Assembly: GCA_950295325.1 (NCBI GenBank) | Contig: OX485805.1 | Coordinates: 18,091,501 to 18,155,500 of the forward strand | Origin: Polytrichum commune | Taxonomy: Eukaryota > Streptophyta > Polytrichopsida > Polytrichales > Polytrichaceae | Direction of reading: 5' to 3' | DNA: 64,000 nt | Part shown: positions 25,799-56,167 of the stretch, in pieces | How positions within the stretch are numbered: the stretch's first letter is position 1 | Layout: each line of letters begins with the position of its first letter | The notes under the pieces: model-generated | Seen by the model: only the letters and a program-made list of their open reading frames with translations | Database searches by the model: none | What the model was told of the DNA's origin: nothing | Program-made: the position numbers and the translations under genes

Positions 25799-25860
25799 AC
25801 ACTAAATATGTTATTTAGTGTCACCCATAACACTATATTCGTTAAATTGAGACTTTTTGG
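25799..25860. repeat. ACACTAAAT hairpin and a 24-bp dispersed block
   Basis: The hairpin ACACTAAATA...TATTTAGTGT lies at 25799-25821. It is followed by CACTATATTCGTTAAATTGA plus GACT (25832-25855), which is the exact reverse complement of 43167-43190. This suggests both belong to a longer dispersed family. Confidence 0.55.
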
Positions 25861-25969
25861 GCATTTTGAGACATTCACATAAATAAGAACAAGGATAAAT
25901 GGAACACATATTGGAGAAAGTTGTAAGATGCGAACACTTTGTGTCGGGTATTTAGAACAAGAACCCCAT

Positions 25970-26245
25970 TAATAACTCATATTTGGGATTGTTTAGGATG
26001 CGCAATCCAAACCTTAGGCCAAATTGAAGGGGAAATCTTAAAACATTCATATTATCGCACACAAAATATGAGATCTTGTATGAATATGTTTTAGGTAGGG
26101 CACTCCAAACCCTTAGACCATATTGAAGGGGAACTATGTGAACCAATATAATATAACATACAAAATATTCCAAACTCATATTTGTGATGGTTTAGTTAGG
26201 GCAATCCAAACCTTGGACCATATTGAAGGGGAAATCATGTGACAC
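25970..26245. repeat. Tandem repeat, about three units of ~100 bp
   Basis: Three diverged units share ACTCATATTTG, GGTTTAGGTAGGGCA, ATCCAAACCTTAGACCATA and TTGAAGGGGAAAT. A further partial copy is near 35675-35725, where the same text reads TAGGACGACCCAAACATTAG. Confidence 0.65.
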
Positions 26246-26376
26246 TTATATTATTGCAAAAAAAACATACAAAGTATGGCATGTAAAATGCATAGCATGC
26301 TAACACCACACATACATTGGATAGTGCGACCCAAAATGATGTTGCCTATGGCCCAAAACCCTACGCCTACTATGGC

Positions 26377-27183
26377 CTATCTAGCCTCGGAGATTGCCTC
26401 TTTTTCTTTTGCTTTTTTATCTTTTGCCTCTTTTTCTTTTGCCTCTTTTTCTTTTGCTGCGGCTTCTTTTGCTCGCATTGCTTCAACATTCCTGAAAATC
26501 TCCGCCCCGCGACTATAGCCATTCTTGGGGTGACCGCCATCCATAAGACATTTTGGAGTCCGTCGGCCGCCCGAAATATACGTCGAAGAATTCGAATACG
26601 ATGAAGTGGATTGTCTCGCATTTCTGGTCATGGCGTACATACGCTCGAACTCGATGGACGCACTAGACCGCATAGGTTTACGGGTGGGAGCAACCTGCAA
26701 CGCGTCATTGCAAGACCACATGTGTTAGTTTAGGGAGGAAGACCCAAACGTGTCACACGATCATTTTTTAAGTGCAAAATGATTGTAATGCGCGGTTAAC
26801 CATGTTTTAGAGAGGGGGGGGGGGTTCACCTTGTCACCGGGGGCGTTCCCATCGGAGTTGGCAAGGAGGGGCAAGGCGTCCCGCAAAGGAATAGGAAGGG
26901 TTCCACTCTTCGTTGGCCGTGCGTCCATCCGCAGCCGCCGTTGAGGTGTAATACTTCCGCCGGGCCGAGAGGGGGATGTCCGGACGCATTTGCGATTTAT
27001 GCCCTTGAGCGGCGACGGGGACGGAGATCGCCGTAAGATTTGCTTGGGTGGGGGGCTATCGACGACGCCGGCGTCAATAGGCTCCTTGGAGTAGTCAATG
27101 GTTGACGCGGCGTCGTAAACGGTCTCGTAGAAGAAGCTCCCCAACTCTGACTCGCTGACGATGTCAATCGAGGGCTCCAAACG
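26377..27183 (-). CDS. Two exons of an uncharacterised protein, possibly 3' part of the FCP1-like gene
   Basis: Minus-strand exons 27183-26830 and 26694-26377 join in phase with AG acceptors (TGCGCCAG, GTTGCAG) and an AAG/GTGAAC donor, and end at a stop. The first is acidic and then Pro/Ser/Arg-rich. The second ends in a Lys/Glu/Ala-rich coiled-coil-like tail built from repeats of AKEKE. No domain recognised. GC content is clearly higher than in the surroundings. They lie just 3' of the FCP1-like frame and may be its last exons, but the stop at 27329 separates them unless an unseen splice removes it. Confidence 0.45.
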
Positions 27184-27289
27184 CTGGCGCAAAAAAGGAA
27201 ACGAAACAAAACCCAAAGGAAGAGGGTTTGCTAGAGCGCGTGAAAATCAAGATACATATGAAGCATATATTACACAAAGTGGGCGGGCG

Positions 27290-27291
<2 letters not shown>

Positions 27292-27320
<29 letters not shown>
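27292..27320. repeat. (CA)n microsatellite
   Basis: An uninterrupted run of about 14 CA units lies between the FCP1-like frame and the next exon. Confidence 0.9.
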
Positions 27321-27324
<4 letters not shown>

Positions 27325-27328
27325 TGCC

Positions 27329-28141
27329 TCAAATGAGCTTGTTAAATTTCGCGTGAGAGAACAACTCTCTGTACAAATGGTCTCGTGGATCCAAGTATCT
27401 CTCGCCTATCGGATTATTCCTAACAAAATTGTTTACAGGTAGTCCGCTTCCCCTGAGCGCCTGGAGGTATTTACTAAGGTCTAACAAAAATCGGTCCCGG
27501 ACCTTCTCGACCGTCCACGTAGGGCAAACTATTAAGTTGGCCGTCGGGTTCAACATGTTCTTTGCGGCGCTGTCGTCCACCATGAGCGTGTTCTCCCGGG
27601 TGGGACGGATGTCGTAGGGGACACCTATCAATGACGGACGCTGGTCCCAAAAAATGGGCTTCAAGACCTTGAGGTATTGGGGGGAAGCGGGGTTGTTTGG
27701 TTTTTTGACGACTTTGCCGTCCGGTGTGTACAATATTCTACAGGCTTCCTGTGCTAGGACCATGCAGGGGGGCTCGATGCCCTTGAAGATGAACTCCACG
27801 ACTGCATTGGTGTTCTCGGCCTTCATGGAGCTCCACACGACCACCCACCATCGTTGTTGGGCGATATGGAGGAAGGTCCGAAGCCACGGGCGGAGGTGAA
27901 CTAGCTTGCTCTTTATGAACGTGGGCGGCCCGTCGTAATTCGCGTCCTCGGGTTTGCAAAAGGCCACCGTGGGGGTCCTCGGGCAATGAACGCATTGGAC
28001 GAGGACCCCGTTGAGGTCTAACACCAGGAACCGGGTCTTAGGCGGCAAAGGTGGAACGGGTAAAATGGGGGGGACCATCGCGCTACCTTCCTCGCTTCTT
28101 GGAGAGGCCCGGCGGGGAGCCGCGACGCTATGCTCCGATCC
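27329..28141 (-). CDS. FCP1/NIF-like HAD-family phosphatase domain protein (partial)
   Basis: Open frame with a splice acceptor (CTCCACAG) just before 28141; an internal Met is at 28078. It has the HAD order of an FCP1-homology domain. The nucleophile motif is FLVLDLNGVL (Asp codon near 28018), then LRPWLRTFL, VVVWSSM, a PIFWDQRPSLIG block, and the late acidic motif LMVDDSAAKNM. The usual DxDxT is DLNGV, so the second Asp is Asn, as in a plant subgroup of FCP1-like proteins; activity is therefore uncertain. The C-terminus is RDHLYRELF and ends at a stop at 27329. Upstream exons are missing from my model. It lies in the same orientation as the ParB-like gene. Confidence 0.75.
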   Translation of the reverse strand, partial: GSEHSVAAPRRASPRSEEGSAMVPPILPVPPLPPKTRFLVLDLNGVLVQCVHCPRTPTVAFCKPEDANYDGPPTFIKSKLVHLRPWLRTFLHIAQQRWWVVVWSSMKAENTNAVVEFIFKGIEPPCMVLAQEACRILYTPDGKVVKKPNNPASPQYLKVLKPIFWDQRPSLIGVPYDIRPTRENTLMVDDSAAKNMLNPTANLIVCPTWTVEKVRDRFLLDLSKYLQALRGSGLPVNNFVRNNPIGERYLDPRDHLYRELFSHAKFNKLI

Positions 28142-28483
28142 CTGTGGAGACGAGCGACATAAGGCGGGGGAAGACTATGTCATGCTATGTCCACTTAAAG
28201 TGAATACAATATTTTCTGTGAAAAATACAAGAACCACTATGCATAGGCGGCCATACAAATGCAAGAGGGGGCAAGAGGAAAAAATATACATTTGAACACG
28301 AAAACAAACATAAGGGCACAAAATAATAATTTTATTGTTTGCAATGCTCTATGTACAAAATGCCTAGGGGTGCGAAGCCGCGTTGAACGATCCGTTCAAA
28401 CTATCCTAATTCAACATCTACAAAATTGTGTGCACGCCTCCAAGTTCGAGTAAAATCGTGGGACGGGCGACGTTAGTGATCGT

Positions 28484-28499
28484 CGGGGGGGGGGGGGGG
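28484..28499. repeat. Poly-G tract
   Basis: A run of about 16 G on the + strand, prone to length errors and G-quadruplex formation. Confidence 0.8.
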
Positions 28500-28590
28500 C
28501 TGAAGGGATGCGAGAGCGGATGGACGGGGTGGGGGCAGTTCCTCCTAGCTAGGGGGGACACGACCACGGCAACAAGACAATAGACCAGGA

Positions 28591-29004
28591 GTTTGGGTCG
28601 AGCGACCCAAACTGAGGAGGTCTCAGTGTATTACCTCTCCCTGGTCATGCCTGGACGCCATGGAAGCCTCCACCGCCTCCGCTTGTCGTTCTCTCTTGCC
28701 ACCGCCTTCTCCGACGATGTCAGCACCCCTCTCCTGCAAGCGCTCAGTGTCAGGACCTTCTCCTAACCCAACCTCCGCATGTGCATCATGCATAGGTTCA
28801 TCGATTGGGATAGGAGTAGAGGTATCACCAGGCCCTCGAGGACCTTCAACATCAGGCATGGGTGTGTCTCTTTCAGACCCATGCTGGTCCATTGAAGACT
28901 GAGCGGTAACGGGGTTTGGGTCGGCCGACCCAAACTCTCGTGCATCATGAGATTGGCCTTGTTGCACTGTAAGGGGGGGCGGGTTTGGGTCGGACGACCC
29001 AAAC
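28591..29004. repeat. Three copies of the GTTTGGGTCG palindrome, downstream cluster
   Basis: Copies are at 28591-28612 (centre AG), 28914-28935 (centre GC) and 28983-29004 (centre GA). Each has the 10-bp arms GTTTGGGTCG and CGACCCAAAC intact. They lie 3' of the ParB-like gene. A minus-strand open frame (28623-29006) reads through two of them and may be a further exon or simply a repeat-driven frame. Confidence 0.9.
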
Positions 29005-29018
29005 ATGTGGGGGTCGTC

Positions 29019-32000
29019 CTACTGATGGGGCGGGGGGATCACCAGGGGCGGCCGAAGTGGTGGGGGGGTCACAGGTCTAGAAGACCCGGGAAGGCGCCAT
29101 ATATTGGGGTCATCCGCTTGTTGAACCGGCGGATACGGACGGACGTGGGGGGGAACCATGTGCTGAAAGCTGAAGGAGGATTGCGGCACGGGCTGCGGAG
29201 GAATGTTCTGGGGAGGGAAGCCGGGGGGCAAGTGTGGAAATGAGCCCGGGGGAGCCACCACCAAACCCTGCGCCCACATGCCTCGAATCACTTGCGTGAT
29301 CAAGTCCGCACTAGTTGGAGGTTGCGCCAATGCCCGCAGTCGCTCTTGCTCCAATAAGAGAGCCCTTAGCTCTGCCACTTCGTTCCGCACTGAGGGTTCT
29401 TCAGCAGCGGCCTTTTGCAAGCGGACGCGTTGTTCTTCGTCCCTTAACATCTTCTCGTTGGCTTCTTGCACGGTGAGGACTTCCGGCTTCACCTTCACCA
29501 TCCCTGCGAAGGCACCTGGAGAGGGAGGGTCTGACCTGAGCCGTTTCGCGAGCTCCATGTCGTCCTCGTCTTCGCTGCTAATGGCAATTGTCTCCTCGAT
29601 GGCATAGTCGCCATAGAGTTTCTTGCCTTTTAGTTTCCTCCTCTCCCTGAACGCGGCAGTCGCATCCCTGGAGTACATGTCGCGGGCATCATCAACCGTC
29701 AGGACAGGCACCAACTTACTTTGTGGAGTTGCTACCCGCATTGCCTTCTTTCGTTGAGGGGCTTCAGATTCCTGAGTGAAGCCTGTTCCCCCTTCTTCGA
29801 CCTCGCCCTCCACTTTAGCCTCTTCTTCCTCCTCTTCCACCTCCTCATCCTCCTCCTCCCCCTCCTCGTCACGCGGTCGCCGAGAGGATGTGCCTGGATG
29901 CACTTGGACCAGAGGCTCTGGTACAGCAACTGGAACCTTTATGGCCAATTCTTCAGGGTTGACACGCCTCGCCTTATCCAGCGGGCTCTCACCCCCTTCA
30001 ACAGTCTCCTCGGCGTAGCTCCCAGGGATCCAGTCTAGTATATCCATCTTCTTCGCCAATGATTTTTGGGCCTTGTAGAATTGGATGTCATTAAGGTCTA
30101 CATAGTTGTACACGTTCAGCCCCAGCATCTGCAGAAATCCCACCAGATGTTATTATATGGCATAACATGTGATTCCACCGAAAAGGGGAAGTACATACAA
30201 GACCTAATATCAATTGCAAAGGTTATAGTTTGGGTCGAGCGACCCAAACTAGCATCGGTGTTAGTTTGGGTCGCTCGACCCAAACTATGAAAACAATTAT
30301 GGTAAGGAGCTTACCATGCCAGCGAAGACGGGCTTGGTGCCGCCGAAGACGTTGAATATACAGTCCCCTCTTCTCGTCAAGGCCCTCATTATTCGGAGAT
30401 AGAATTCCATCCGCAACTCGTCCGAATGGTATATGGCATATTTTGCCTCGTCGTAGAGGGACTTACTTGCGCCCAGGCCTTCTGGAACTTGGAATAGTTT
30501 CTGCATCCGGGTTATGGGGTGGTTCTCCACCTTCAGCAAGGTTGCTTTGAACACAAAGTACAAGCACAACAAATTCATGACTTTGGTTTTCTTGTCCTTT
30601 AGTGTCGTGTACACCCCCTCCGCCGGTGCAGCAATGTAGTGAGACTTAGACACCGCATACTCAGGCTGCAATTTCCTCACAATTTCATACACCTGCTCTG
30701 CTCTCCTATCCTCTACTATCCACAGCCACATATCGACCTCCCTAAGCTTAGGGCTTGCATACTCCATGAACTTCGACATGAAGGGCTCGTAGAAGGGTGT
30801 ACCCATTGTGCCCTCAAACGTACTCCCAGGAATGCTCCGGAAGTCTATTATACCAAAGGGGAACCGGTCCGCTGCTCTTACTCGTATTTCTTTCCTGGAA
30901 TCAAGGCCGGGCCATCCCTGGATTTTAATAGGGTCAAAAGCGACAAGGTTGAAATGCGCATCCCCCTCAAAACTTACAATCTTCTTCTCCTTTATAAAGT
31001 TTGAGAAGGCACGCGTCGAGTGTTCTGGAAGAGCCAGGTTCTTCCCACCCTTCACCAGTTCTGACTTTAGGAAGTCTTCTCCTGCCTCCCTGATCAGAGC
31101 TGCCATGGATGCACTGGTGAAGTTGTATTCAGCCTTGAACGCTCTCCAGTTCACCTCGTTCACCTCGTCATCGACAAAAATGTTCTTTTCCGGGATTAGC
31201 TTCTGCAGCTCCTGGACGATCGTTGTTTTCTTCTTCCTATTCTCCGCCCATTCCTTCATTGTGTAGCATGAAGGAACAAAGGATTTCGGCTTGGTGAAGA
31301 CTATTTTGGGGTACACCCAAAATCTCTTAGGGGTCGGGTTGTTGTGCAAGATGTGCGTTGCCGCCTTCCCCATTTCCGCCTCCGAAAGACCCTGCAGACT
31401 TCTAAAGAATTCTCTCATGAGAGGCTTCATCGCCTTGAATCGAGAGGACGAGTTGAAGAGGTTGCATGTGTCAGGATCCATGAGATCCCCTGTCTCGTGT
31501 TTCTCAAACACTGTCTTCCACTTCTGCCAAACCATGTCGGATGATGTAATCAAGTAGATCTCTCCTCTTAGCTCATTGTACTTCTTTTGCTTGTGACTTG
31601 AATTGTCAATTGAGGAGAACTTGTTTATCATTTGGTATTTGAAAAGCTGCACAAGAGCATAGAATGCGTGTTAATTCTCAATATGTTGTTTCCAAACAAA
31701 GAAGAAAAATGATGAACAACAAACTGCGTAGACAAACACAAACTAAAATACAAGGTTTGGGTCGAGCGACCCAAACTGTATGAAGAAACACAAGGTTTGG
31801 GTCGAGCGACCCAAACTGTATGAAGAAACGCAAAGTTTGGGTCGAGCGACCCAAACTGTATGAAGAAACCCAAAGTTTGGGTCGAGCGACCCAAACTCTG
31901 TTTGAGGAACAATGCTCACCTCCCACTTTGGATTCTTGTCTTTTGCATTCTCCCTTTCCTTGGGAGGCCGGCCGTAGAACTCCCACACATCCCGCGATGC

Positions 32001-33248
32001 CATGATGTTCCTAATCCAAGAAGCTTGATATGCCCGCTTCTTGTTATTCATGTTGAAATAGCGGGAGATATCGCTCAGCCGGGTTTCGTCGTCCGACCAC
32101 ACGACCAATGCCTTCCATACCTTCAATTTTTCCTTTAGACCATTAGGATCATTCCACTCCGTCATCAGTTGAAGTTTCTTTGAAGCTTCAACACTGTGCT
32201 GACCGTCAATCAGCCAAAAATCGCCTTTCTCTATAGAAGGCCACATATCCGGTGTAGGCATTCTTTTGTGTCCCTGAGGCATGACAACAATAGTCTGCCT
32301 ATCATGTTTAAACTGGTCGCTCACCATCTGGGCGATTAACCAATCAACATACGCATCTTCCTTTGCCCGAACGCACTTCTCTGGTGGCGCTAGGTGGCAT
32401 TGTGCGATGTTGACATCAAACTTGAATTCTCTGCCCATGAAAAAACAATGTAAACACTTGGTGTCGAAATTGTTGAGTATTTTCTGGATCTCCGATGGCT
32501 CCACTCCTTCCCCGGGCTTGGGCATACGTAGCTCCGGTGAAACAGGCTCATCTGTCATGGCAGATACTGACTCTCTCGGCCTCTTAGATGGTGTCGTCTG
32601 CCGGCTTTGTGATGGCGTCGATGTTTCACTATCAGCAGGAGTTGCCGTAGGTGTTGTTCTCCTCGAGTCAGCTGGAACCGGTCGGGGCTTCCTCACTGTT
32701 TGAGGTCTTGACGACCCTGCGCCCTCTTCAGCAGTCGCCTTGCGCCTCACAGCTTGTTGAGATTTTGACTTGCTTTGCTGGGTCTTGTTTATTGCGTTGA
32801 TTGCCTGCTTAAGTTTAGTGAACCTGGTTGCAACCTTCGTGTTTGAAATGATCGCATCTATGAAGATTGTATCCGGTTTAACAATGTCTGGCTCAGCGCA
32901 GGATTCCTTCACGTATACCGGATCGAATGGCTCGGCTTGCTCATGCATGAACATGTGCACATTTTCCAGAGAAGAATTTTCCAGGATGACGTCAACGTGC
33001 TCTCCTAGAGCATGAACTGATGCCACCTCCCATCCCGTCAAAGCATCCCATGTGTGTTGCTCCTCCGTGCCAACCTTCAAAACAAGGAGGATTTTGAATT
33101 GAGCTGCCTTTACTACAAGAAAGGACCATGCAATTACAAGGTCTTCTTTTGCTACGTAGGATTGGTTTTTAGGAGTTTCGTGCTCCTGCCAGATCGCGTC
33201 TGGTGCCGGCTTGAACCATCGTTCTCCAGGTCTTTTCTTGGGGGGCAT
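29019..33248 (-). CDS. ParB/sulfiredoxin-like and DNA-methylase-like protein, 3 exons
   Basis: Minus-strand exons 33248-31920, 31646-30315 and 30128-29019 join in phase 0 with good GT-AG sites to give about 1256 residues. Residues ~265-440 look like a ParB/sulfiredoxin N-terminal fold. They have LAPPEKCVRAKEDAYVDWLI, then GDFWLIDGQHSVEASKKL (DGQHS at 348-352, where ParB-type proteins have DGEHR), then WKALVVWSDDETR. Across the exon 2/3 joint, NVFGGTKPVFAG (ending at 887) plus GLNVYNYVDLND resembles the SAM-binding FxGxG motif and following acidic strand of N4/N6 DNA methylases. A canonical DPPY-type motif is not evident, so the methylase may be degenerate or I may be wrong. The C-terminus is acidic, then Pro-rich. 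The palindromes lie only in introns and flanks. A donor-like GTAGG at the stop allows an extra exon. Not a family I can name. Confidence 0.6.
30228..30285. repeat. Two palindromes in intron 2 of the ParB-like gene
   Basis: Perfect copies at 30228-30249 (centre AG) and 30264-30285 (centre CT), 14 bp apart. They sit within the 186-bp intron between exons 2 and 3. Confidence 0.95.
31755..31896. repeat. Four palindromes at 40-bp period in intron 1 of the ParB-like gene
   Basis: Perfect copies, all with centre AG, start at 31755, 31795, 31835 and 31875. They are separated by the 18-bp spacer TGTATGAAGAAACACAAG with small changes. The period is exactly 40 bp. The array occupies most of the 273-bp intron. 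Confidence 0.95.
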
Positions 33249-33272
33249 CTGCAAGTAGAAATACATATGTTA

Positions 33273-34087
33273 GTTTCGGTCGGGCGACCCAAACTCTTTC
33301 AAATCATATAGGCTTATGTCTGGGTTTAGTAACATTTATATATGGGGTTACTTTTCACAGGTTTGGGTCGAACGACCCAAACCTGTGCCTACAATGGCTA
33401 ATGAATAATATATTATTTGGCTACGAAAACCAATCTTTAAGTTCATGGATACAACAATCATCACGAGCTACTGTTCTAGTTGTGGGTCATTTCATTATTG
33501 CTTGGGTGTTTGAGTTGTTGTTTATAAGTGTAAGTATTGTTCGTAAGCAGTAAAAATTTACGCAAAGTTTGGGTCGTTCGACCCAAACTTTGTAGCGGTA
33601 TGGAATGATCGGCTATGGCCTTAGATCATACCCAAGATGATGATTACCTAAATTATGAATTACCATTTCATGCGCTGTTTGGGTCGAACGACCCAAACTC
33701 TGCAGATGGATTGGGTCGAGCGACCCAAAGCATGTGCTAGTTTGGGTCGAGCGACCCAAACTCTGCAGATGGATTGGGTCGATAGGGTTAGATATTCACC
33801 CAAGATGATGATTAAATTAATTATAAATGAACATTTGATGCGGAGTTTGGCTAAACCCTAGACCCAAACAATGCTTATGGTTTGGGTCGAGCGACCCAAA
33901 CTCTGCAGATGGATTGGCGCCCACGACCCAGAGCATCTGCTAGTTTGGGTCGAACGACCCAAACCATCTTTAGAGTTTGGGTCGAACGATCCAAACCAGC
34001 TGGAGAGTTTGGGTCGCTCTACCCAAACCAGCTGCAGAGTTTAGTGTTTTAGGGTTTCAAACTGAAGTTTGGGTCGTCTCTCGAAAC
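33273..34087. repeat. Cluster of about eleven palindromes upstream of the ParB-like gene
   Basis: Copies start at 33273 (arm variant), 33361, 33568, 33677, 33709 (end variants), 33740, 33880, 33943, 33975 (one mismatch), 34007 (one mismatch) and 34067 (right arm broken). Centres include AA, TT, AG, CT and GG. Several share the flank CTGCAGATGGATTGG, so part of the cluster arose by duplication. The cluster covers the presumed 5' region of the minus-strand gene. Confidence 0.9.
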
Positions 34088-34304
34088 ACTTTTGATTCCA
34101 GAGACCTTTATAATGTGTTTACGCAGCATATACAATGCTTATGCATTGTAGATGCTGCGAAACTCTAAAGAAATTGACACACATAAAGAAGTTGAAGAAA
34201 TCACCTTGCTTTGCAAACTACACAACAAGCTGTTGTTGGAAGCAGTTCTAACAAGCTAGTCTTGGAAGCTGATTCTAGAAAGGATTGGATATCAGAAAAC
34301 TAAG

Positions 34305-34445
34305 AACGCCTCACAAACATTCACTCTGAATTGAAGAAGCTTTCACAAACATTCACTCAGAATTAAACAATCCCTCACAAACATTCACTCAGAATTAAAC
34401 AATCCCTCACAAACATTCACTCTGAATGTAACAAGTGTTTACAAA
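34305..34445. repeat. Short tandem repeat of about 36 bp, four units
   Basis: Units contain TCACAAACATTCACTC followed by GAATTAAACAATCCC or a close variant, with starts near 34309, 34347, 34383 and 34411. It lies upstream of the palindrome cluster. Confidence 0.8.
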
Positions 34446-34689
34446 CATGAACAAAGAAGCTATCTGAAGGCCACACATGCATCCTGATTTTCGAACAATC
34501 ATTCTAATTCCGAAATCACTCTACACTCACACATGAATGTTTCTAAGACCAGGAGGAACTGACACAACCACTTTGAAACAACACTCACACTCCAAAACAA
34601 CAAAGACGTTCTGAAATGGCTAAAATGTATAGACTTTAATACAAAAACAAACCCTAAACTCATACTACACTCAGAACTCGGTCAATGCG

Positions 34690-34930
34690 CACTCAATGAA
34701 CAACAAAATAGATCAAAAGAAGAAGAGGAGTGAAAGAGAGAATGAGATAATGATGAAGAGGGAAGGAGAGAGGGAATGCGAGTTCGACAAGGAGAGAGAG
34801 AATGCAAGGGAGGAGGCGGCGCTTTCAAGAGCGGCGGCGCCTCCAGAAAGTATGAGGAACGTACAAAGGAGGAGGAGCTTGGAGCGGAGGAGAGAGAAGG
34901 AGAAAGTGCGGAGGGGAGAGTGAAAGGGGG
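34690..34930. promoter_or_regulatory. GA-rich tract, possible promoter/leader of the ParB-like gene
   Basis: A purine-rich stretch on the + strand (GAGAGAGAATG, GGAGAGAGAGAATG) is CT-rich on the minus strand, as is common at plant transcription starts and 5' leaders. It lies about 1.4 kb upstream of the ParB-like ATG on the same strand, with splice-acceptor-like text (CTTGCAG) directly before that ATG. This is inference. It could be simple low complexity. Confidence 0.3.
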
Positions 34931-35976
34931 AAGGTCACTCAAGGGCGGGACCCATTCGGGCCGGCGCCTTTCGTGTCCGTTCGGCTCATGGCCGCCACGT
35001 GTCACGGGGCGCTCCATGGCCCAAACGAATACACAATCTGAGCCATTGGAGAGCCCCAGGCCCATCGACGGTCGATAGGCCTCGCAGGTGGGTATCCTTT
35101 AGCCACCTATCCCATACCATCCTTGAGGATACTAAAAAACCTTTATAGCCTAAGGTTTTTAATTTAATGGTCCCCCGATGGATTTGCTAATATCAAATAA
35201 TGAAACTGTATTGGTTTTGTAATTTTAGTAATCTACACATATGCATGAATCGAGAATGATAGATACTAGACTAAGAGGAGTATTTAATAATTATATTGCA
35301 ATCCTCGTAGGCAATTACATAATGGAATAATATAACTATGGTAACCATTTACACAATGAATGGTTTCGAGTTATATATTGTAATTATCTATGAAGGTTGT
35401 TGGTAAAGGACAATGCTATAGCCTACGATGGATCCGTTAACACATACCATTGAACTAAATCTAATTATACAAGTTTATGTAGTGTCATTCATTATAATAT
35501 GGAATTATGCAATATTAAGTGTTGACAACTTAATATCATTGTTGTTTGCGAAAAGCAACAAAGATGTTGTTTGATTTATAGCATGATGGAACATTAACAT
35601 ACTTATTTACAAGTTTACATATTTATGAGATACAAATATATTGAAGCGGGTGTTTTTGCTGAAGAACCCAATTAAGAACTCATATGAAGATGGTTTAGGT
35701 AGGACGACCCAAACATTAGACAATGTTGTTGTTGTTCATATATTTAGTTGAGACAAGATAAAGTCTACAAATATTGAATATAGTGATAGTAAATGAGAGA
35801 AGCACCATGTATACAAATATGAAGCTATCAAATACTAATATGTGGAGTTCAACATTATATGAAGCCATTTAAGCAATCACTTTGTTGTTGGATGATCCCT
35901 CCACATATATTAAACAACATATCTTATTAGGAAATGAGGCACAAATTACAGTAGATGGTGTTCTATATGGAAGCCA
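34931..35976. other. AT-rich intergenic region
   Basis: No gene seen. It includes a partial relative of the 25970 repeat near 35675-35725. Confidence 0.4.
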
Positions 35977-36525
35977 CACGGGTAGGTCACTCTAAGGCAT
36001 TTTTGTGCACCACGTGCGGCTCAGGGTTTTTTGTTTTGGGGCTATTTACCTTCAAGGGTTGAATTAAAGCCTCCCTATAATTACTTGAATTTCAAAAATG
36101 GCCCATTTGTTTGCACCCTTCCATTACTTATATTGTCCAAGTCACTGCAATTTTTTGTACTCTATATTCCTTTTAAGTAATAAAAGCTAATCTACTTCCT
36201 GTTAAGGGAAACCATGGAAACAAAGAAGGGTGCAAACAATAATATCATTGCAAACAAAGTTATGAAGAAAACACATAGGAGACCATAGCAAACATTATAC
36301 TAAACATACCTTCTAGGAACCTTATCTTCAGCCCCTATATTAATTTTACAAAAAAATAATGGCCCACATTTTATGTCCATCTAACTTACTTATAATGGGA
36401 TTGTCTACATTTAATGGCCCCTTCATTATTTGGAATTCCTTTATAATTTTTATTTCAAATGATTTCAATCCTCTCTATATTATGCCGCACGTCGTTTTTA
36501 AAATGCACTAAGTGACCTACCCGTG
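35977..36525. mobile_element. Non-autonomous DNA transposon (MITE) with 8-bp target duplication
   Basis: A 549-bp element with terminal inverted repeats starting CACGGGTAGGTCACT, continuing imperfectly through GCATTTT and CGTGCGGC for about 45 bp. Flanks GGAAGCCA (35969-35976) and GGAAGCAA (36526-36533) look like an 8-bp target duplication with one change. That length fits hAT-type elements. No coding capacity. Confidence 0.75.
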
Positions 36526-36547
36526 GGAAGCAACCCTGAACAACTAC

Positions 36548-36583
36548 GAGGGTGTAGGGTGTAGGGTTTAGGGTTTAGGGTAT
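36548..36583. repeat. Interstitial telomere-like repeat
   Basis: Tandem GTGTAGG and GTTTAGG units, including two TTTAGGG units, the plant telomere motif. Confidence 0.7.
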
Positions 36584-38452
36584 ATAAATGTGTCTTGTTG
36601 CACTCGAAGCCATAAATGAATGGCGCATAGGTCAAATGAGGGGGCCAAGTCGCTTGTGGTTCTAAAAACAAATGTATATAGATATCACAATAGTCTAATT
36701 CATGAACATGAACGTTGGTTACATTTCATGTTATGTTTGTTATGTATGTTATGTTACGTCGTAGATGCGTTCATATTTAGTGTATAAATCTCTAAATATC
36801 TTATTTAGTGTAGTGACACTAGAACACACCAACATGTATTTAAGGACATGTTTTGCTCAACTTGCATTGAATAGATACAACTATATATGTTTAGATTTTT
36901 CATCAAACATTTGTTAAAACAAATAAAGTTGATTACATTTTTTTTGGCAAGCCAAATCAATAAAAACTATAGGTACAAAACACAACTACAATAAGTATGA
37001 TATTTAGTGTTTGATACACTAAATACAAGTGAATACACAATATATCAATAACCATATGAAAGTAATAAACATTAAATATAAGCTATAGTAATATGTGGCA
37101 TTGACATGTTTGAATTTAGTGTTAGTAAGGATGTGAAAAGAAGAAATATACGTGAGAGTAGAAGGTAGCAACACATTTACTTCTAACACTAACTGTCATA
37201 GGATTGAAAATTAATGTTGAGCATGTAAGGGTGGTAACCATAGTCCGCCAAGAGCCTAAGGCTAGTGTAAATGCAGCCTACAAAATTTGTGACTTAGCCT
37301 ATAAAATTTTGAAAGTGTAGGACAAAGAGCCTATGGACAATTTTAAAACATAGGATATCAACCTATGTGGTAAAAAACATGTAGGAAATTTTGCCTACAA
37401 AGTTTTTAAAAGAGCGGATTTTAGCCATTCATCCTTCTTCAAATTGGGAAATTAGTTGGCCTAAGTACATATCTTTAGGCTAATACTCGGGGCTCTTGAG
37501 TGGCACATAGGCGGATATCAATAATAGCCCTGACTCCCTCCCCGTCGATCTTTACAAATACCACAGCCCAAGCCCCATCACCGCATAGAGGTTGAATCAG
37601 AAGATGGTGAGGACTTTCACCCTTAAACTCATTTGAATTTTAGCAACCTTTCATAACTTATAATCAACTCTTTAAAAAGGAGTTGGTTAATCCTTGGCCT
37701 TCAAACGTGGTGAAGGGCTTAGCCAGGTTCAATTCCTGCCAAGGATACCACTTAGTACTCAAATTTTGAATTTAAAGCCTACAACATTAAAAGATATGAA
37801 GGATTTTAACCTACTAAAAATTAGTTTTAAAGGCAATTGGCAGGTAACTTAAAAACTCAAAAGGTTTTCAACTTACAAAAATTTGATATTGTAGGATGCA
37901 ACCTATGCCATGAGGGAAATAGCCTATGCCCTTTTAAAGAGGTAGGCAATTAACCTCAATAACTTCAAAAACTTTTCGGACACTGGTGGTAACAACACTA
38001 CATATAATCAAATCCACACATCATATTTTGTGTAGTTATTTAATAGCGGAATTAGGAGGTTAGTTGTCCAAGGTCATTTGATGGTTGGCGCCACGAAGAG
38101 GCAAGCTAAATATGGATGCTCTATTACCAACAAGAAGCGGGAAATTCTGTCAGAAGGTTTGAACTTAGGTTTAGGGTTTACGTTCGGGCGGGAAAGGGAT
38201 CCAAAGAGGAAGGCCAAGGCGGAGGCGGGTAGTATAAAGTACCAAACCCCCCAAACTTTGCTCCTTTTTTCTCATCTCTCCATTCTGAAATGGTTGCAAG
38301 CTCTCTCAAGTAGTGGTGGAGTGCAAGGTTCGTGTATGCATCCGTTGATGAGTAGCTAATTACAACAGCCATGCACGGCCTGAATTCTTCCAATTAGTAT
38401 CCACGTAGCTGAATATGGAAGATTACTGCAATTTAAGGCGGAATTTGCGGAA
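36584..38452. other. AT-rich intergenic region
   Basis: No gene recognised. It contains ACACTAAAT/ATTTAGTGT hairpin-type motifs at 36774-36815 and 37001-37025, and several paragraphs of diverged text around CCTAC/AAATTTG words at 37260-37980 that look like an old internally repetitive sequence. Confidence 0.4.
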
Positions 38453-38454
38453 TG

Positions 38455-39402
38455 TTTGGGTCGCTCGACCCAAACCCACCCCCATAGTGAGGTTTGGGTC
38501 GAGCGACCCAAACCCACCCCCATAGTGAGGTTTGGGTCGAGCGACCCAAACCCACCCCTATCACGGGTTGGGCCTGGATTAGCAGGCCCATCCTGTCACG
38601 AGGTTTGGGTCGCTCGACCCAAACCCACCCCCTCTCACGGGTTGGGCCTGGATTAGCAGGCCCATCCTGTAACGAGGTTTGGGTCGCTCGACCCAAACAC
38701 ACCTCCATTGTGAGGTTTGGGTCGAGCGACCCAAACCCACCCCTGTCACGGGTTGGGCCTGGATTAGCAGGCCCATCCTGTCACGAGGTTTGGGTCGCTC
38801 GACCCAAACCCACCTCCATTATGAGGTTTGGGTCGAGCGACCCAAACCCACCGCTATCACGCGCTGGGCCTGGATTGCCAGGCCCATCCTGTCATGAGGT
38901 TTGGGTCGCACGACCCAAACACACCTTCATTGTGAGGTTTGGGGCGAGCGACCCAAACCCACCCCTGTCAGGGGTTGGGCCTGGATTAGCAGGCCCATCC
39001 TGTCACGAGGTTTGGGTCGAGCGACCCAAACCCACCCCTATCAAGGGCTGGGTCTGGATTACCAGGCCCATCCTGTCACGAGGTTTGGGTCGAGCAACCC
39101 AAACCCACCCCTATCAAGGGCTGGGTCTGGATTACCAGGCCCATCCTGTCACGAGGTTTGGGTCGCTCGACCCAAACACACCTCCATTGTGAGGTTTGGG
39201 TCGAGCGACCCAAACCCACCTCCATTGTGAGGTTTGGGTCGCTCGACCCAAACACACCTCCATTGTGAGGTTTGGGTCGAGCGACCCAAACCCACCTCCA
39301 TTGTGAGGTTTGGGTCGAGCGACCCAAACCCACCCCTGTCACGGGTTGGGCCTGGATTAGCAGGCCCATCCTATCACGAGGTTTGGGTTGCTCGACCCAA
39401 AC
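38455..39402. repeat. Satellite-like array of eighteen GTTTGGGTCG palindromes
   Basis: Eighteen copies of the 22-bp palindrome with centre AG or CT (one CA) start from about 38455 to 39381. Spacers alternate between ~15 bp (CCACCTCCATTGTGAG type) and ~52 bp. The long spacer holds a second hairpin (GGGCCTG and CAGGCCC arms around GATTAG). The four variants, at about 38899, 38937, 39082 and 39381, carry single changes. The arrangement indicates amplification of composite units of about 37 and 74 bp. Long open frames here come from the repeats and are not genes. Confidence 0.95.
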
Positions 39403-39594
39403 CCACCCTCATGCACACAATGGGGATGTGCATAGACGGATCCTGAATAAACTGTTGTGCGCTCCATCTTTTTGGAACCCATCGATATAATATTCATACA
39501 ACATGTGTTATGATAAGGTTTCTGTGTTTTTCTATTGGACCCTATAGCTTTTGTCAATTCTTTACAAGGTTCCATGTTCATGTGTGTAGGCAAA

Positions 39595-42500
39595 ATGGAT
39601 GGGTATACTGGAAGAGGGTATTCGTCTGGAGAAGACATGGCCACTTGGCCATCTGCATCTGAGGAAGAGCTAGACATTGTCGGGGAGGCTACTATGGATG
39701 AGAGTTCAGATGAAGAGCATTTCGATATACCTTCGCGTTCCGTACCGGACTGTCCCATTCCAGAGTGTGCCGTGCTTTCAAGAGCTTCATGGGTGAATTT
39801 GGATGTGTTACTTCTTAATGACAATGGGGTTGTTGTGGCGGAGGGTATCTGTCGTAACACCCATCCACAAGATTGCATTGATCAAAATCCGCTTGGCACC
39901 GAGGACGTTGGGATTGTCATATTGGAGTCACTCGTTCTGAGGTGGATCCCACTCATAGGTTCTCCCTCCGCAGGTGGCCATTGAGGAATGTCACAACTGA
40001 TGGAGTTAGCTTGCGTGAACATGAGCAACGACACATGCAACTCGAAAAGGAAATGCAATCAAACATGCGGCCACGCAAGGGTCAAAGAAAGTACGATACT
40101 GTGGCACGTCCTTCTCCATCTGCAACTGATTGTAAACGTCAAAGGCTGCTTGGGGAGGAGTCCATAAGAGAAGTTGCCACAAAGGATTGTTGTGTGCATT
40201 GTTGTTGCCAATTGTTTCCAAGGGATAAATTGAAGGCCATCCGTGAAGAAATGTGGCTTGGAGATTTTCGTCTAAGATCCACAAAAAAACTTGATGTCCA
40301 TAGGGCAATACATGTGAATGGGACGGGTCGCAAGGTAATCACCATTGAAAGCATAGACGTGTGTTGTAAGGCATGGTACACCATTTACGGTGTGTCGAAG
40401 GCGGACTTCTATAGACAAGCTGCTTATGCCAAGGAAGGCCGCCGGTCCCGTCACCATGGGAACGTGGGTTTAAAGAAACCTAGGGAAGCAACAAGGCAAG
40501 CAACGGCAACTCTAGCAACCATCATTGTCCCCCTTGCTGATGCAATGCCGCACAAAACACGCACACTCACAACCGGTAAACATGTTGTGGAGAAAGTTCT
40601 TCCCACAGGCACAAAATGGAAAGACATATTGTTGGACGTTAATGCAGTTGGCGAGAAGATTGGGTTGGAGCCAATTTCATTGTCAAAATTAAGTGCAATC
40701 AAGAAACAAAACTTTAGCGAATACATTACAAAAAGACGAGGGGACAAATTTGCCAGGTGCTTTAATTGCGAGAAGTTGAAGTGCCTCCGGGATGCACACA
40801 CGATGGGTACCGAGTCATATGCAGCGCATCAATTGAACTATTTCAAGCACGTAAACATGCAAGAGGCACACCGTAATGATTACTACACAAATAGAGCTTT
40901 GTCCATCTCCAGGCCCTTGGAGGTTCTTACGGTCATCCATGACAAAATGGACCATGCCAAAACAGCCTCCCCATGTTTTGCAAATCGAATCAAGGCCACG
41001 GATGGGTTTTTTTAAGTTGCCTGTATCGGTTACAGGTGAACTTCGAAACAATGTCATGACATACCCTAAATGTTGTAGTTTTTTATTCCGTGATGTACTG
41101 GAGAACATGGATTCCTTCATAATGGTTTATTCATACATAGATGCTAATCACGTTGGGTTGGCATTGCAGGAATGATTGCACATGGACACGGTGATGTCAA
41201 GTTTGCTCATTATGCTCTTGATTTGTATCCAGCGGATTCAAACCACACGATAGGATCATTTGCAAGGCTTTTACGTGATTTAGAGAAACCACCAGCCTAT
41301 TCTTCAGGATTGTTATTTGAGAACACGGGTTCAACACCTTTATATGAAGCGGTGTTGGATGGAAAAGATGTATGCTTGCATTCGTTGCCCGAGCCACCCA
41401 ATGAACCCGTGATTGCCAAGAAGTTGCCTCCAACTTTGCGTGTCCAATTGGACAATTGTGCCAAGGACAATAAAAGCAGATATGTATTTGCATATTGGTC
41501 GTTGTTGGTTGCGAAAGGCATTTTCAAGGAGGTTTTTGTGTCCTTCCTATTGGTAGGCCACACGCACGATGATATTGATGCATCTTTTGGGCGGTGGAGC
41601 ATGAAGTTGCGGGAGGAGGATTTTCCTACAATCCCATTATTGATGAAGTCGTACATGGATTTGGAGAACGTTCCCGTCATCCCCCATATGATTGAGGAGG
41701 TGCCAGACTTCAAGGCATTTATAGAACCTTATATTCGAAGTGGAGCTCACCGATTGATCGGGCATACGAAGGCACAACAATTCCGGTTCTACATGCGTGA
41801 CGATGGTGTCCCGGCCATGCAATACAAGTTGTTGTGCACGACACAAGACTGGAGCCCGCCGGAAGGTCTTCTTGTGTGGCGCGTGGATGCGGATGGGAAG
41901 ACCATGTTACCGGATGGGGAGCCTAGCCCTTGTAAGCCAATAGCCATGAAGAATTTGGAGGATATTTTGAAAGGTATATCAGGCTTCATACAATATTGGG
42001 AGAGTTTGAAGATAGCGGATGTTGGCGGATCATGTTGGCATCGTTATGGGAGTTGGATACATTATTGGACACGTGTTCGTGCCGCCTTGGTAGACCTCCA
42101 CCAAGATAGCCCTCATACTTTGAGGCATGGATTTTGGCCACAAACACGAGTCGATGTACAAGCTTCAGAGGCTAGTCTTTTGGGAAATGGAGAGGTTCGA
42201 GAGGAGTTTGATGTGGACGACCATTACGTGGGGCCTGCTAGTAGTCGTCCGCCACCATCTTTCCGCATTGCAGTGGATTGTCATGAAGGATATATGCTCA
42301 TTTTGCGTCCTGGAGACGAGACATATGTGAAGCCAGTGTGGGTGGCAAGAGCTTTGTCCAAACCCAATTTTGTAACTTCCAGCCCTCATTTTCGACAAAT
42401 ACAAGTGGAGTACTACCGACCGACGGCAAGGAATGAAGATGTGATTCGGCATTATACAGGCTGGGATACAAACCCTAACTTTCGGTGGAAGGTGGATTCT

Positions 42501-42656
42501 GAGCACGGTCCATCTTGGGTAGATACAGATTCCATATTCATAGCATGGAAACCACGGAAAAATCATAGTGGATCAGTGTCCATCCCTCAAAAGTACATAA
42601 CTTTTGCAAAAGACAACCTTGCTCGGATCGCAGAAGAAGCAACCCACGTTGAATGA
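39595..42656 (+). pseudogene. DUF7869-type transposon-like protein gene with two frame breaks
   Basis: Encodes a protein of the type with a C-terminal DUF7869 domain, which I regard as transposon-associated with a DDE/RNase H-like fold (inference). Coding text runs from the ATG at 39595 (acidic N-terminus) through VCCKAWYTIYGVSKADFYRQ, ATRQATATLA and the Cys region CFNCEKLKCLRDAH. It continues to HDKMDHAKTASPCFANRIK, then, after an intron (41036-41169), VQLDNCAKDNKSRYVFAYWS (near 41445) and VGHTHDDIDASFGRWSMKLR (near 41559), ending at 42656. The frame changes near 39935-39945, where one reading ends and another continues as DPTHRFSLRRWPLRN. It changes again at the seven-T run 41007-41013, where one base too many separates TDGFF from KLPVSVTG. 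Either may be a sequence error, but two breaks suggest a decayed copy. Confidence 0.75.
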
Positions 42657-43166
42657 GAAGTTGGTAGGATTGTGTTAGCATGATTATAGTGTAAACAGTA
42701 ATTCTACGAACATATATTACTCATATGTGTGCTCTTCAAAATTGGGGCAGAGTTTGGGTAGAACTTACGAATACTATATTGTTTTGGAGTTGGATGAATA
42801 TCCATTTACTATATTTCAATACAAATGTGAAGTTCATTTTTTTTATTAAGTTTGGGACTAAATTGTCCATTGAAAAAATATGCATTTATTACATGCACTT
42901 TGTATGTTGCAATGTCTATATTCTATGGAACATGCTAATAATAGAAATCATTATATATATATTTTTGGGTGAAACTTGTTTGGAGTGCTCTACCCAATGT
43001 GTTTTTGTTGATGAAATTGGTGTTGAGTGCTCTACCATATGTGCTTATGTCCGCACATCATAGGTGTGGGATATTAGAACATTTAATATATTTGAGATTG
43101 TTGACAATATAGTTTCAGGCATCTTCATGTTGTTTGATCCATATATTAATTTGAGACTAGAGAAAG
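42657..43166. other. 3' flank of the DUF7869 gene
   Basis: AT-rich, no gene. A small internal duplication of GGAGTGCTCTACC/TGAGTGCTCTACC text occurs at 42980-43035. Confidence 0.4.
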
Positions 43167-43760
43167 TCTCAATTTAACGAATATAGTGTTCCATTCTAAT
43201 TGTCTTGCTCAATACTAACTGTAAACGGCAGTGTGGTGTCACCAACACTTAATGCTAACCCAACATTATTTGTCATTCCTTGTCAATGTTTTGGGGGGAT
43301 TAGAGATTTACAGTGTTGCAATTAATGTCACTTACCAAGTGATTTTTCATCCAAATTTCAATCATCCATGACAATATTTCTTCACAAGTTGTTGACACGA
43401 CAAGGTAGGGTTTTGGCCAATGGATGTACTCATCCCTCATCCATGACAATTTTTGTTCACTTATTCATAAGAAGTGTTATATGAAAAGTTACCATAGTGA
43501 TATAGAATAACATATGACACTAAATATTATATTTAGTGTCTTGTATGAACATCTTATTCATTCTCAAAGTGAAAAAGTTGGTGTCATTAAATGGACATAT
43601 AGGTTACCCAATTTATATTGACTATTGTGCGTAGAATGGTTACCTTATTTTGAGCACATGGTTCAATTTCTTAAAATACGTTTTTCTTTTGTGTGCATTC
43701 TTACATCCACACCTAATCACAAATCATTGAAACATAGTTGTCCAATTCATAAATTAACCA
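43167..43760. repeat. Dispersed repeat, most complete copy
   Basis: The first part (43190-43530) matches 20326-20600 and the last part (43605-43750) matches 10305-10440. This copy therefore joins segments seen separately elsewhere. It begins beside AGTCTCAATTTAACGAATAT plus AGTG (43167-43190), whose reverse complement is at 25832-25855. It contains the 25-bp hairpin with GACACTAAATA and TATTTAGTGTC arms at 43516-43540. Probably a non-autonomous transposon or LTR; boundaries unresolved. Confidence 0.7.
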
Positions 43761-54700: not shown

Positions 54701-56074
54701 CAACATCCCCCTCATGTTGAACTGTCGACATCCTGCGGGTTGGGAAAAATCAAGTGTTGGCACACCATGCCACAATTCCTTCAGTTCATCCAACAAGGGC
54801 CGTATGTACACATCGATGTTTCCGTCATGCGGTGACCGCTTCCCCGAGATCAGGATGCATAGTGAAATGAAGAATTTCTTGGTTACAAACCAAGGCTCCA
54901 GATTATATATCAAGATCAACACTGGCCACGTGGACCAGTTTGTGTTGCTCAACTTGAACGGATTGACACCATCCAATGCCAAAGCTAGCCGCATGTTTCT
55001 CTTCTCGCTGCCAAAGTTGTTGAAAGCAACGTCGTTGTCAATGTGCTTCCAGGCGGGACTATCAACGACTGATCGCATGATGCCGTCTGCGCTGACATGT
55101 TTTGTATAACCAGTCAACATGCCGGCAATCTCCGGTGAACGCCACATACGTTTCAGCCTGGGTATTAGTGGGAAGTGCCGAATCACTTTGCTCGGGACAT
55201 TATTTGTGCCCTCCATCCATCGTGACTTTGAACATCTGGGACAAACGTTTAATTCTGCGTGGTCGCCGTCATAGAGCACACATCCGTCCGGACATGCATG
55301 GATGTTGTTGTAGTTCATGCCCAACTTGCGGATTGTCTTCGCCGCTGCGTATTGACTGCGTGGTAGCTTGTTGCCCTCAAGGAGCAGGTCTTCTGACAAG
55401 TACCGCAGCAATTCGGATGTGAAGTTGTTGCTGACACCAAAGACGACGCACATGTTCATTATGACGATTGTGGCGGAGACAACGCTGCACTTTGAACCTG
55501 TGTACAAAGGGGTGGTGCATTGCCTGAACAATTCCTCCAATCCCTCCACGGTGTCGCTGTCCATGTCGACCTCCATGTCCACGTCGGTTTCAAGGGCGTA
55601 CTCCCTGTACAACGCATCACCTCGGTCCAGAGCCTCCATCACCTGCCTGTGGACATCATGGTATGGGTCGAGTGGCGTGTCGGCGCTGCCAACTGGATAG
55701 GAGCTTTGGACATTTCCGCCGACATCGGCGTTATCCTGAATGTCTGGATTGGCGTCAACTACATCATCGTCAAATGATATGTCCTCGACCCAGATACCAT
55801 CCGGAGGGTATCCATCGGGAGGATCGCCGCCTATGATAGACTTTGTCAAAAATGGATCTCGGCCAACCGAGGTGTGATGCTCTCTGACAACATAGATGGG
55901 TTTACGCAGGCCTCCGTGACAATTGACACATGGGCATGGGTAGGCCACAATGTTCTGCTCTGTTGCAACTCGAAGCTCTGTCTGCAGGATGAGATCGCCA
56001 AGGGGAATATGTCGTTCTGTGCGTCTGTCCTCTGTTATTCGGATGCGAGCACCGCGAGGCCGTGAATCGGCCAT
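51781..56074 (-). CDS. CACTA transposase (Tnp2 type with DUF4218 and DUF4216 regions), at least 4 exons
   Basis: Exon 1 (56074 to ~54302, about 590 residues) starts MADSRPRGARIRITEDRRTE. It includes the transposase core landmarks YAAAKTIRKLGMNYNNIHAC, LNVCPRCSKSRW, PRLKRMWRS, ALALDGVNPF, WHGVPTLDFS, LMWTISDFPAYGLISG, CCKGYKGCPCC and ends SALFELPYW. Exon 2 (about 53923-53573) continues HLKIRHVLDVMHCEKNLCEN to KSHDYHVLMQQ. Exon 3 (53410 to ~52857) has ILPVAVRN and the DUF4218 text MYPIERYMKTLKDYVRAYAH then PEGSIAEGY. The last part (to 51781) is DUF4216-like, with LRVRSSEGGLVTRDSCVVAA and EEILELDYRNHCTTVLLCEW. Junctions 2/3 and the exon 3 donor are clear; the exon 1/2 joint does not close in phase with the best sites. 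Confidence 0.8.
54130..54261. repeat. CACTA-type terminal inverted end inside transposase intron 1
   Basis: The reverse complement (CATTATAAGATACCAC, then GTAGACG, GGACATCAACATG, TGTAGATGAACATC, AATGAACGTGATGTTGTAAA) follows the left end at 50660-50780 in order over about 115 bp with mismatches. It is therefore an inverted partner of the left terminus, located only about 40 bp beyond the end of exon 1. Confidence 0.7.
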
Positions 56075-56167
56075 CTCCCCTGTATCCACGTAGTTGATTA
56101 TAAAAAAGTACTCATACCAGCAGTGCCAAATTGATTCCGCCGTATTCATGTACTAATTGTATTCATA

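Follow-up and report, generated by a model that had tools for sequence, protein, structure and literature searches.

Within a 64,000-nucleotide stretch of the Polytrichum commune genome (contig OX485805.1, positions 18,091,501 to 18,155,500; hereafter the window), a Sola-like DNA transposon of 17,362 bp occupies positions 25829 to 43190 and holds three genes, among them a minus-strand gene for a putative ParB-like protein, together with arrays of a 22-bp palindrome, here termed palindrome I. In this report, we describe the element, the gene and the palindromes, compare them with a second family of ParB-like genes in the same genome, and weigh the reading that protein and palindrome form a self-recognition module of the transposon.

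The element is bounded by perfect terminal inverted repeats (TIRs) of 28 bp, the left at 25829-25856 on the plus strand and the right at 43163-43190 on the minus strand, and a target site duplication (TSD) of CCAT flanks it at 25825-25828 and 43191-43194. Two other copies have the same TIRs at their ends, their alignment to the window stops there within 3 bases, and 4-bp TSDs flank all three copies (CCAT in the window, CCCA and GTGA in the others). The transposase-like gene (39882-42656, plus strand) comprises two open reading frames (ORFs), 39882-41015 and 41148-42656, of which the second matches DUF7869 (PF25273, E = 1.2e-42); it is divergent from the ParB-like gene, the two lying on opposite strands. 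The third gene, at 27332-28084 on the minus strand, encodes a NIF/FCP1-type phosphatase (PF03031, E = 3.8e-15), possibly an RNA polymerase II phosphatase put to use by the transposon, and the 150 copies of it scored among 1,248 candidates are all 92-100% identical, with frames that are mostly open. Sola transposons have 4-bp TSDs, TIRs of 11-1124 bp and sizes up to more than 15 kb (PMC10741241), a description into which the window element falls on all three counts. The superfamily has a DDD transposase of its own type, and we infer that DUF7869 is the Sola transposase. The TIRs, the TSDs, the transposase-like gene and the many near-identical copies establish that the locus is part of a mobile element, as the first-pass annotation, made from the letters of the window and their ORFs, had supposed.

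The three-exon structure proposed there for the ParB-like gene also stands. Exon 1 (33248-31920, minus strand, as are all parts of the gene) ends in a DGQH (ParB/Srx-like) domain at 32492-31920. Intron 1 (31647-31919; 273 bp, GT-AG, phase 0) holds four palindromes I at a 40-bp period (31756-31895). Exon 2 (31646-30315) has DFRS at the place of the DPPY of beta-class methylases, as aligned by eye, and then the motif-I-like stretch GDCIFNVFGGTKP; intron 2 (30129-30314; 186 bp, GT-AG, phase 0) holds palindromes I at 30229 and 30265, and exon 3 (30128-29022) starts within the motif-I-like stretch. The stop at 29019-29021, previously read as the end of the gene, is instead a nonsense codon specific to the window copy, TAG here and CAG in all five other copies of the same subfamily, and it severs a coding tail at 28623-29018. 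Because the frame reaches 28623 without this TAG, the palindromes starting at 28915 and 28984 lie within the coding tail of intact copies.

Palindrome I reads GTTTGGGTCG-NN-CGACCCAAAC and was scanned as TTTGGGTCG-NN-CGACCCAAA. At up to three mismatches the window holds 39 sites, against 0.02 expected by chance, and the 408-Mb genome holds 9,731 exact copies, against none of a reversed-pattern control. At no more than one mismatch, four sites lie in intron 1, two in intron 2, ten upstream of the gene (33274-34027) and three downstream (28592-29003, starting at 28592, 28915 and 28984), just where the first-pass annotation had seen them; its count had overlooked a second array of 18 palindromes at 38455-39401, between the divergent genes and 5' of the transposase gene. 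Its remark that the exons are free of palindromes is correct for exons 1 and 2 and wrong for the coding tail. Exon 1 has none in the five loci where it was bounded, and exon 2 has none in five of seven loci, those with both ends found (the window, L009, L010, L011 and L022; it was unbounded in L020 and L021), while exon 3 of L009, L011, L020 and L022 contains two each. Within the window the arrays have periods of 32 and 40 bp; at other loci the periods are 57, 64 and 78 bp. The outermost 2.7 kb on the left of the element and 3.7 kb on the right are free of intact sites, the sole form near the ends being a copy with three mismatches at 26316. Another palindrome, TGGGCCTGGATTAGCAGGCCCA, found in a whole-window scan and placed from the ORF text, recurs six times in the second array, and four 32-bp direct repeats (CACAAACATTCACTC...) without palindrome I lie upstream of the ParB-like gene at 34302-34461. 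In a further copy, L060 (C4:41922700-41923900), the stretch between the two coding-tail palindromes has been lost in frame, as recombination between palindromes predicts.

Across 213 sites in ten loci, 159 of them exact, the information profile gives 1.5-2.0 bits at ten positions per arm, 0.3 bits in the 2-nt spacer and less than 0.5 bits outside; sites had been admitted with up to four mismatches over nine positions per arm, so that only the outermost G/C is unbiased by that choice. The profile resembles the site of a dimeric protein, and palindrome I may well be one. The centre dinucleotide was dropped as a specificity determinant, since it differs between sites of one and the same element. 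Palindrome I was not found in the viral_contigs collection.

Loci elsewhere in the genome were picked either because they hold palindrome I (L009-L011 and L016-L018) or by protein alone (L020-L034). The palindrome clusters L009-L011 proved to contain this ParB-like gene as well, and each of its two introns holds palindromes there; these stretches covered the ParB-like gene, and the transposase lay outside them. Palindrome I is likewise present at all three of the DGQH relatives chosen by protein (L020-L022, of the 78-82% subfamilies). Of the 100 palindrome I sites listed on contig C1, 81 have a DGQH gene within 12 kb, and 14 are close to L019-type genes; in this and the other counts of palindromes against genes, the genes were hand-picked from listings and the palindromes counted are the 50-100 that head each list. 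Clusters L016-L018 represent another type of element. Both L016 and L018 have a transposase that, in L018, we take to be MULE-like from its motifs, its only Pfam match being SWIM at E = 0.21, and L017 and L018/L019 have a different ParB-like gene, marked by the motif DGNHR. L018 carries palindrome I plus palindrome IV, CTGTGCG-TTAA-CGCACAG (1257-1417 and 6612-6968; 5353-6356).

A comparison of element copies indicated how the ParB-like gene has evolved. At least 37 elements with all three genes are listed, 20 of the window-like type A and 17 of type D, these being lower bounds from 91 of 95 exon-1 rows (four partial rows left out), the full set of 85 transposase rows and 48 phosphatase rows, chosen by eye out of 150 for their proximity to exon-1 rows. 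Type D shares with the window 98-99% identity in the transposase and 93-96% in the phosphatase, and 77-78% in the ParB-like exon. Synonymous divergence (dS) between the window and two type D elements is 0.042-0.045 in the transposase and 0.18-0.19 in the phosphatase and is saturated in ParB-like exon 1, where nonsynonymous divergence (dN) is 0.125-0.128 and dN/dS, in the computable parts, 0.06-0.07. The ParB-like gene is under strong purifying selection, and, since its exon is far more diverged than the transposase and the phosphatase, it is an old and constrained gene that has been exchanged among elements. Between A and D the palindrome arms show no change although the gene is saturated at synonymous sites: L009, a type D locus (99.5% identical to two D genes), has the same arms as the window. 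Each of eight distinct copies of the window type matches the consensus at 99.6-99.8% identity, and among these young copies (L001-L008, L001 being the window copy) 61 C/G against 6 A/T transition cells, with an excess of C-to-T and G-to-A that goes beyond CpG, suggest cytosine methylation.

The DGNHR proteins form a second ParB-like family, whose relatives extend to about 41% identity and whose palindromes have two CpGs 4 bases apart (CG-N4-CG), where palindrome I has two CpGs 2 bases apart (CG-N2-CG). In one uniform palindrome scan of twelve DGNHR loci taken by protein alone (L023-L034), recurrent CG-N4-CG-centred palindromes were present in seven: palindrome II in L023 (GTGTCTCG-GNNC-CGAGACAC), its variant II' in L028, III in L024 (GGKTTCG-GNNC-CGAAMCC), V in L031 (GGCCTCG-GATC-CGAGGCC), VI in L029 (GGTGTCG-TTTA-CGGCACC), VII in L033 (AGTCTCG-GTTC-CGAGATT) and TGTGCG-TTAA-CGCACA in the relic L026. 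No such palindrome appeared in shuffles of the twelve loci (five each) or in seven control segments of the window. Exact genome counts are 997 for the L023 type (II; reversed control 0) and 552 for the L024 type (III; reversed control 1), and palindrome VIII of the L047 type, TTGTGCG-N4-CGCACAA, has 54 exact copies (control 0). Four recurrent palindromes without CG-N4-CG, CTTAAATCTGATTTATG in L023, TTGAAGCCTCGGCTTCAA in L024, GGCACCCCCTGGGATGCC in L029 and AATGAAGAAGCTTCATT in L033, were set aside, so that naming the CG-N4-CG palindrome as the likely target is partly the analyst's choice.

Palindrome type largely follows gene clade in this family. Among the 50 palindrome II sites listed on C1, 36 have an L023-type gene nearby and none has an L024-clade gene; among the 50 palindrome III sites listed, 29 lie near L024-clade and 3 near L023-type genes, and all three L024-clade genes on C1 have palindrome III. 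Palindrome VIII occurs within 12 kb of all ten methylase matches assigned to the L047 type, and 39 of its 50 listed sites lie near one; the ten were selected by score and profile range, and the genes were read in three of them (L038, L047 and the upstream part of L058). A matrix of 26 loci by eight palindrome types is near-diagonal, with L017 and L018 mixing types and with the palindromes of L018 (type IV) and L058 scored as 'neither', their commonest form having lost one CpG. By eye, no transposase was recognised for L023 and L024 among ORFs of at least 120 aa in 18.8-kb flanks. A search covering the DGNHR domain (alignment A3) found no relative in viral_contigs or genome_contigs.

A methylase domain in this second family is supported by profile searches. 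N6_N4 DNA methylases (PF01555) have the catalytic motif [DNS]PP[YFW]. The Pfam N6_N4_Mtase profile gave 118 matches in the genome, 115 of them on the seven large contigs, and 53 of these 115 lie 0.5-20 kb downstream of a DGNHR exon on the same strand, 44 of them within 10 kb; the controls gave 0 upstream, 3 on the opposite strand and a random mean of 0.5 with a maximum of 3. This pairing used 115 of the 118 PF01555 rows (three on contigs C10 and C12 were left out), and its ParB-like rows came from relative searches, with seven added. L047 (E = 1e-7) and L038 (E = 1.5e-8) pass the Pfam cut-off, and a DGNH exon lies upstream of the methylase in L050, which runs on into L047, and in L058. The catalytic motif is degenerate, reading DIPYG in L047, DIPDG in L038, DIPEG in L048 and QFPDG in L019. 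Between the transposase and ParB-methylase genes of L047-type elements lies a further ORF (L050 800-1961 and L058 5351-6859), which we take to be protein-kinase-like from the motif GRGSYGVVWKC.

For the window protein, domain assignment leans on motifs and on one profile match. Against the 38,880 PHROGs families, its DGQH domain matched only phrog_1033, 'ParB-like partition protein', weakly (E = 0.04), a match seen in three of six DGQH domains; among the DGNHR domains phrog_1033 appeared in one of eleven at 0.2, outranked by phrog_9020 (no function) at 0.011. These matches suggest that the protein is ParB-like. Pfam and NCBIfam searches of the ParB-like domains returned nothing that we took as real, and a PF20608 match (E = 0.0016) in one of eleven members was judged to be chance. 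No Pfam match up to E 1 to DUF1985 or DUF287, the VANC domains, was seen in the three exons. At the place of DPPY, the window has DFRS and its relatives DFRN, in an alignment made by eye, so the window protein departs from the PF01555 motif. The first-pass suggestion that the protein nicks or methylates the palindrome is weakened by these replacements and by the DIP[Y/D/E]G or QFPDG of the second family.

Our data suggest a model whereby the accessory protein, a ParB-like domain with a C-terminal, probably catalytically worn-down N4/N6 DNA methyltransferase, would bind palindrome I, probably as a homodimer; its targets would be arrayed in the non-coding DNA of the element, in introns, in upstream regions and in the space between divergent genes, and by coating its own element the protein would keep promoters open against host silencing, like VANC in Arabidopsis VANDALs. 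We consider it very likely that the palindrome is a protein target maintained by selection, and reasonably probable that the ParB-like protein is the binder; anti-silencing as the outcome is a step on which doubt slightly exceeds belief. The reading as a whole, a Sola-like three-gene transposon with a VANC-like self-recognition module that probably acts against silencing, is therefore advanced tentatively, as a possibility falling somewhat short of an even balance. The pairing of protein and palindrome, already proposed in the first-pass annotation, has indirect support in the constancy of the arms, set against a gene saturated at synonymous sites, and in the clade-specific palindromes of the DGNHR family, binding itself being putative. 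In a wider and rather doubtful reading, diverse ParB/pseudo-methyltransferase proteins would form a DNA address system in transposons of the plant lineage, each recognising its own CpG-centred palindrome in a module that moves between transposon superfamilies; this joint claim takes in the CG-N2-CG branch of DGQH proteins, the CG-N4-CG branch of DGNHR proteins and a bacterial-type DNA-marking enzyme turned into a sequence-specific CpG reader that would shield the element from silencing.

Several observations weigh against the self-recognition model. The kinship of DGQH and DGNHR domains is not significant (the local score was reached by 7 of 100 shuffles and the global score by 32 of 100), and the clade-specific palindromes of the DGNHR family therefore bear on the window protein by analogy only. 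A ParB fold found no backing in structural work: profile searches of the Protein Data Bank (PDB) with alignments A1 and A3 and phmmer searches with pieces of P0003, L019 and L047 gave nothing significant, and AlphaFold models of window exon 2 (5 alignment rows) and of the DGNHR domain (11 rows) had predicted local distance difference test (pLDDT) scores of 35 and 45 and were unusable, which leaves the ParB-like domain of the first-pass annotation with the phrog_1033 match. Its methylase domain is borne out in the second family by the N6_N4_Mtase profile and undetected in the window protein, which has no Pfam match to a methylase profile and whose methylase-like region scored 14.0 in hhalign against the second-family methylases, compared with a shuffle mean of 13.8. 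Homologues without a recurrent palindrome, by which the pairing was to be judged, exist in part: in the uniform scan, five of the twelve DGNHR loci (L025, L027, L030, L032 and L034) have none, L025 being a decayed relic and L032 having three type VII palindromes once CpG losses are tolerated, and at the remaining loci the palindrome is different from palindrome I. Of the nine L023-type genes in the part of C1 that the list covers, only four have exact palindrome II, and 13 of its 50 listed sites lie near an L019-type gene instead of an L023-type one. The MULE-like elements L018/L019 have palindrome I and a DGNHR protein and no DGQH gene within 15 kb; such an element may borrow the protein of the other system whose palindrome it carries. 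Finally, a VANC-like mode of action would entail a loss of DNA methylation over the element in the presence of the protein, and a mutational proxy for it gave no signal: palindromic CpGs had undergone transition in 3 of 416 cells and the CpGs of other non-coding DNA in 7 of 1,060, similar frequencies that show no sign of protection from methylation in a comparison of little power.

An unlikely alternative is that the palindromes are internal transposase sites or a transposition enhancer and that the ParB-like protein has another job. Palindrome I arrays also flank the DUF7869 gene, transposase and palindrome arms alike are nearly unchanged between subfamilies A and D, and L018 and L057/L058 share both a transposase at 88-89% identity and the core TGTGCG-N4-CGCACA, a point that also tells against self-recognition. 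Transposase sites would, on the other hand, hardly be expected to occupy both introns of the ParB-like gene and to be missing, in intact form, from the outermost 2.7 kb on the left and 3.7 kb on the right of the element, and palindrome I also fills L016 and L018, whose MULE-like transposase is quite different. We consider it rather improbable that the protein has N4/N6 methyltransferase activity with which it marks its own palindromes, as was proposed for an Ectocarpus protein (PMC12477816): N6_N4_Mtase exceeds the Pfam cut-off in L038 and L047, and L047 retains DIPYG, but DPPY is replaced by DFRS/DFRN in the window family, QFPDG in L019, DIPEG in L048 and DIPDG in L038, and the window protein matches no methylase profile.

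The regular periods of the arrays (32 and 40 bp; 57, 64 and 78 bp) and the loss of a unit between palindromes in L060 are what one would see if the arrays were tandem repeats propagated by unequal exchange and bound by no protein. We regard this as very unlikely, given arms that are constant whereas spacers and periods vary, arrays that persist in the same introns of gene lineages saturated at synonymous sites, and a palindrome type that largely tracks gene clade. The weak ParB profile match and the short palindromes close to the gene recall a genuine parS-like system, for partition or for bridging dispersed copies. ParB-parS partition works with a ParA partner and CTP-dependent loading; no ParA-like gene was recognised among the seven ORFs of the element scanned with Pfam, a chromosomal transposon has no need of partition, and parS arrays of dozens are unusual, so that this explanation is highly improbable. 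The self-recognition model thus remains the one we prefer, at the strength given above.

Other repeats and genes met in the course of the analysis stand apart from these arguments. Inside the element, 36774-37025 is an inverted repeat with 41-nt arms (TATTTAGTGTA...), and TTTAGTGT repeats similar to it flank both element ends (25799-25838 and 43500-43539). A CACTA/EnSpm-like element (Transposase_21, E = 1.1e-61, and DUF4216) lies at 51781-56152 on the minus strand of the window and is unrelated to the palindrome system. Loci L035-L037, on contigs C10 and C12 outside the seven large contigs, hold prokaryotic or phage genes, and these contigs are probably assembly contamination. One of them, L036 on C12, carries a phage-type fusion in the domain order proposed for the window protein, ParB_N (E = 2.1e-11) and then N6_N4_Mtase (E = 2.2e-19); unlike the window protein, it has DPPY intact, and its 3.6-kb locus has no palindrome I.

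The type of accessory gene described here is already known, since ParB-methyltransferase genes have been published for algal transposons. Sola1-1_Ec32 of Ectocarpus carries an accessory protein with ParB-like and N4/N6 methylase domains, whose suggested role is the binding and modification of the element that encodes it, and similar proteins are cited from green and red algal transposons (PMC12477816). Both the large size of that transposon and the placement of its accessory gene and transposase on opposite strands are shared by the window element, whose protein has motifs and one weak ParB profile match where Sola1-1_Ec32 has both domains. Candidate target arrays, clade-wise palindromes, a degenerate catalytic motif and gene exchange between elements set the present system apart, and the string 'palindrom' does not occur in the main text of that paper. 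In Arabidopsis, VANC21 binds short motifs that are densely packed in non-coding DNA, and VANDAL motifs expand as tandem repeats, both within introns and ahead of the transposase gene, the transposase being more conserved than VANC (PMC5735166); the targets of these anti-silencing proteins vary between families (PMC5735166, PMC10398659). In each of these respects, a protein encoded by a transposable element, dense intron and upstream motifs, tandem-repeat growth, a family-varying target and a more conserved transposase, the two systems are alike. They differ in that VANC (DUF1985/DUF287) recognises a non-palindromic 9-bp motif, whereas the protein here is ParB/methylase-like and its candidate target, known from sequence alone, is palindromic and CpG-cored. 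The TET/JBP genes of fungi are likewise epigenetic accessory genes carried by many transposon superfamilies and passed between them; the enzyme is unrelated, and target-site arrays are not described in the part of that source considered here (PMC12730594).

What appears new is the presence of cognate-looking palindromes and their change between clades; a literature search, with most subscription papers outside its reach, found neither target palindromes nor clade-specific protein-palindrome pairs described. The candidate targets can be read directly from sequence, and one genome offers several natural protein-palindrome pairs, so that both the function of the proteins and the distinction between self and host become testable by simple binding assays. 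If the protein does counter silencing, a VANC-like system would have arisen a second time, in the transposons of P. commune, and would offer sequence-specific tools for work on the epigenome.

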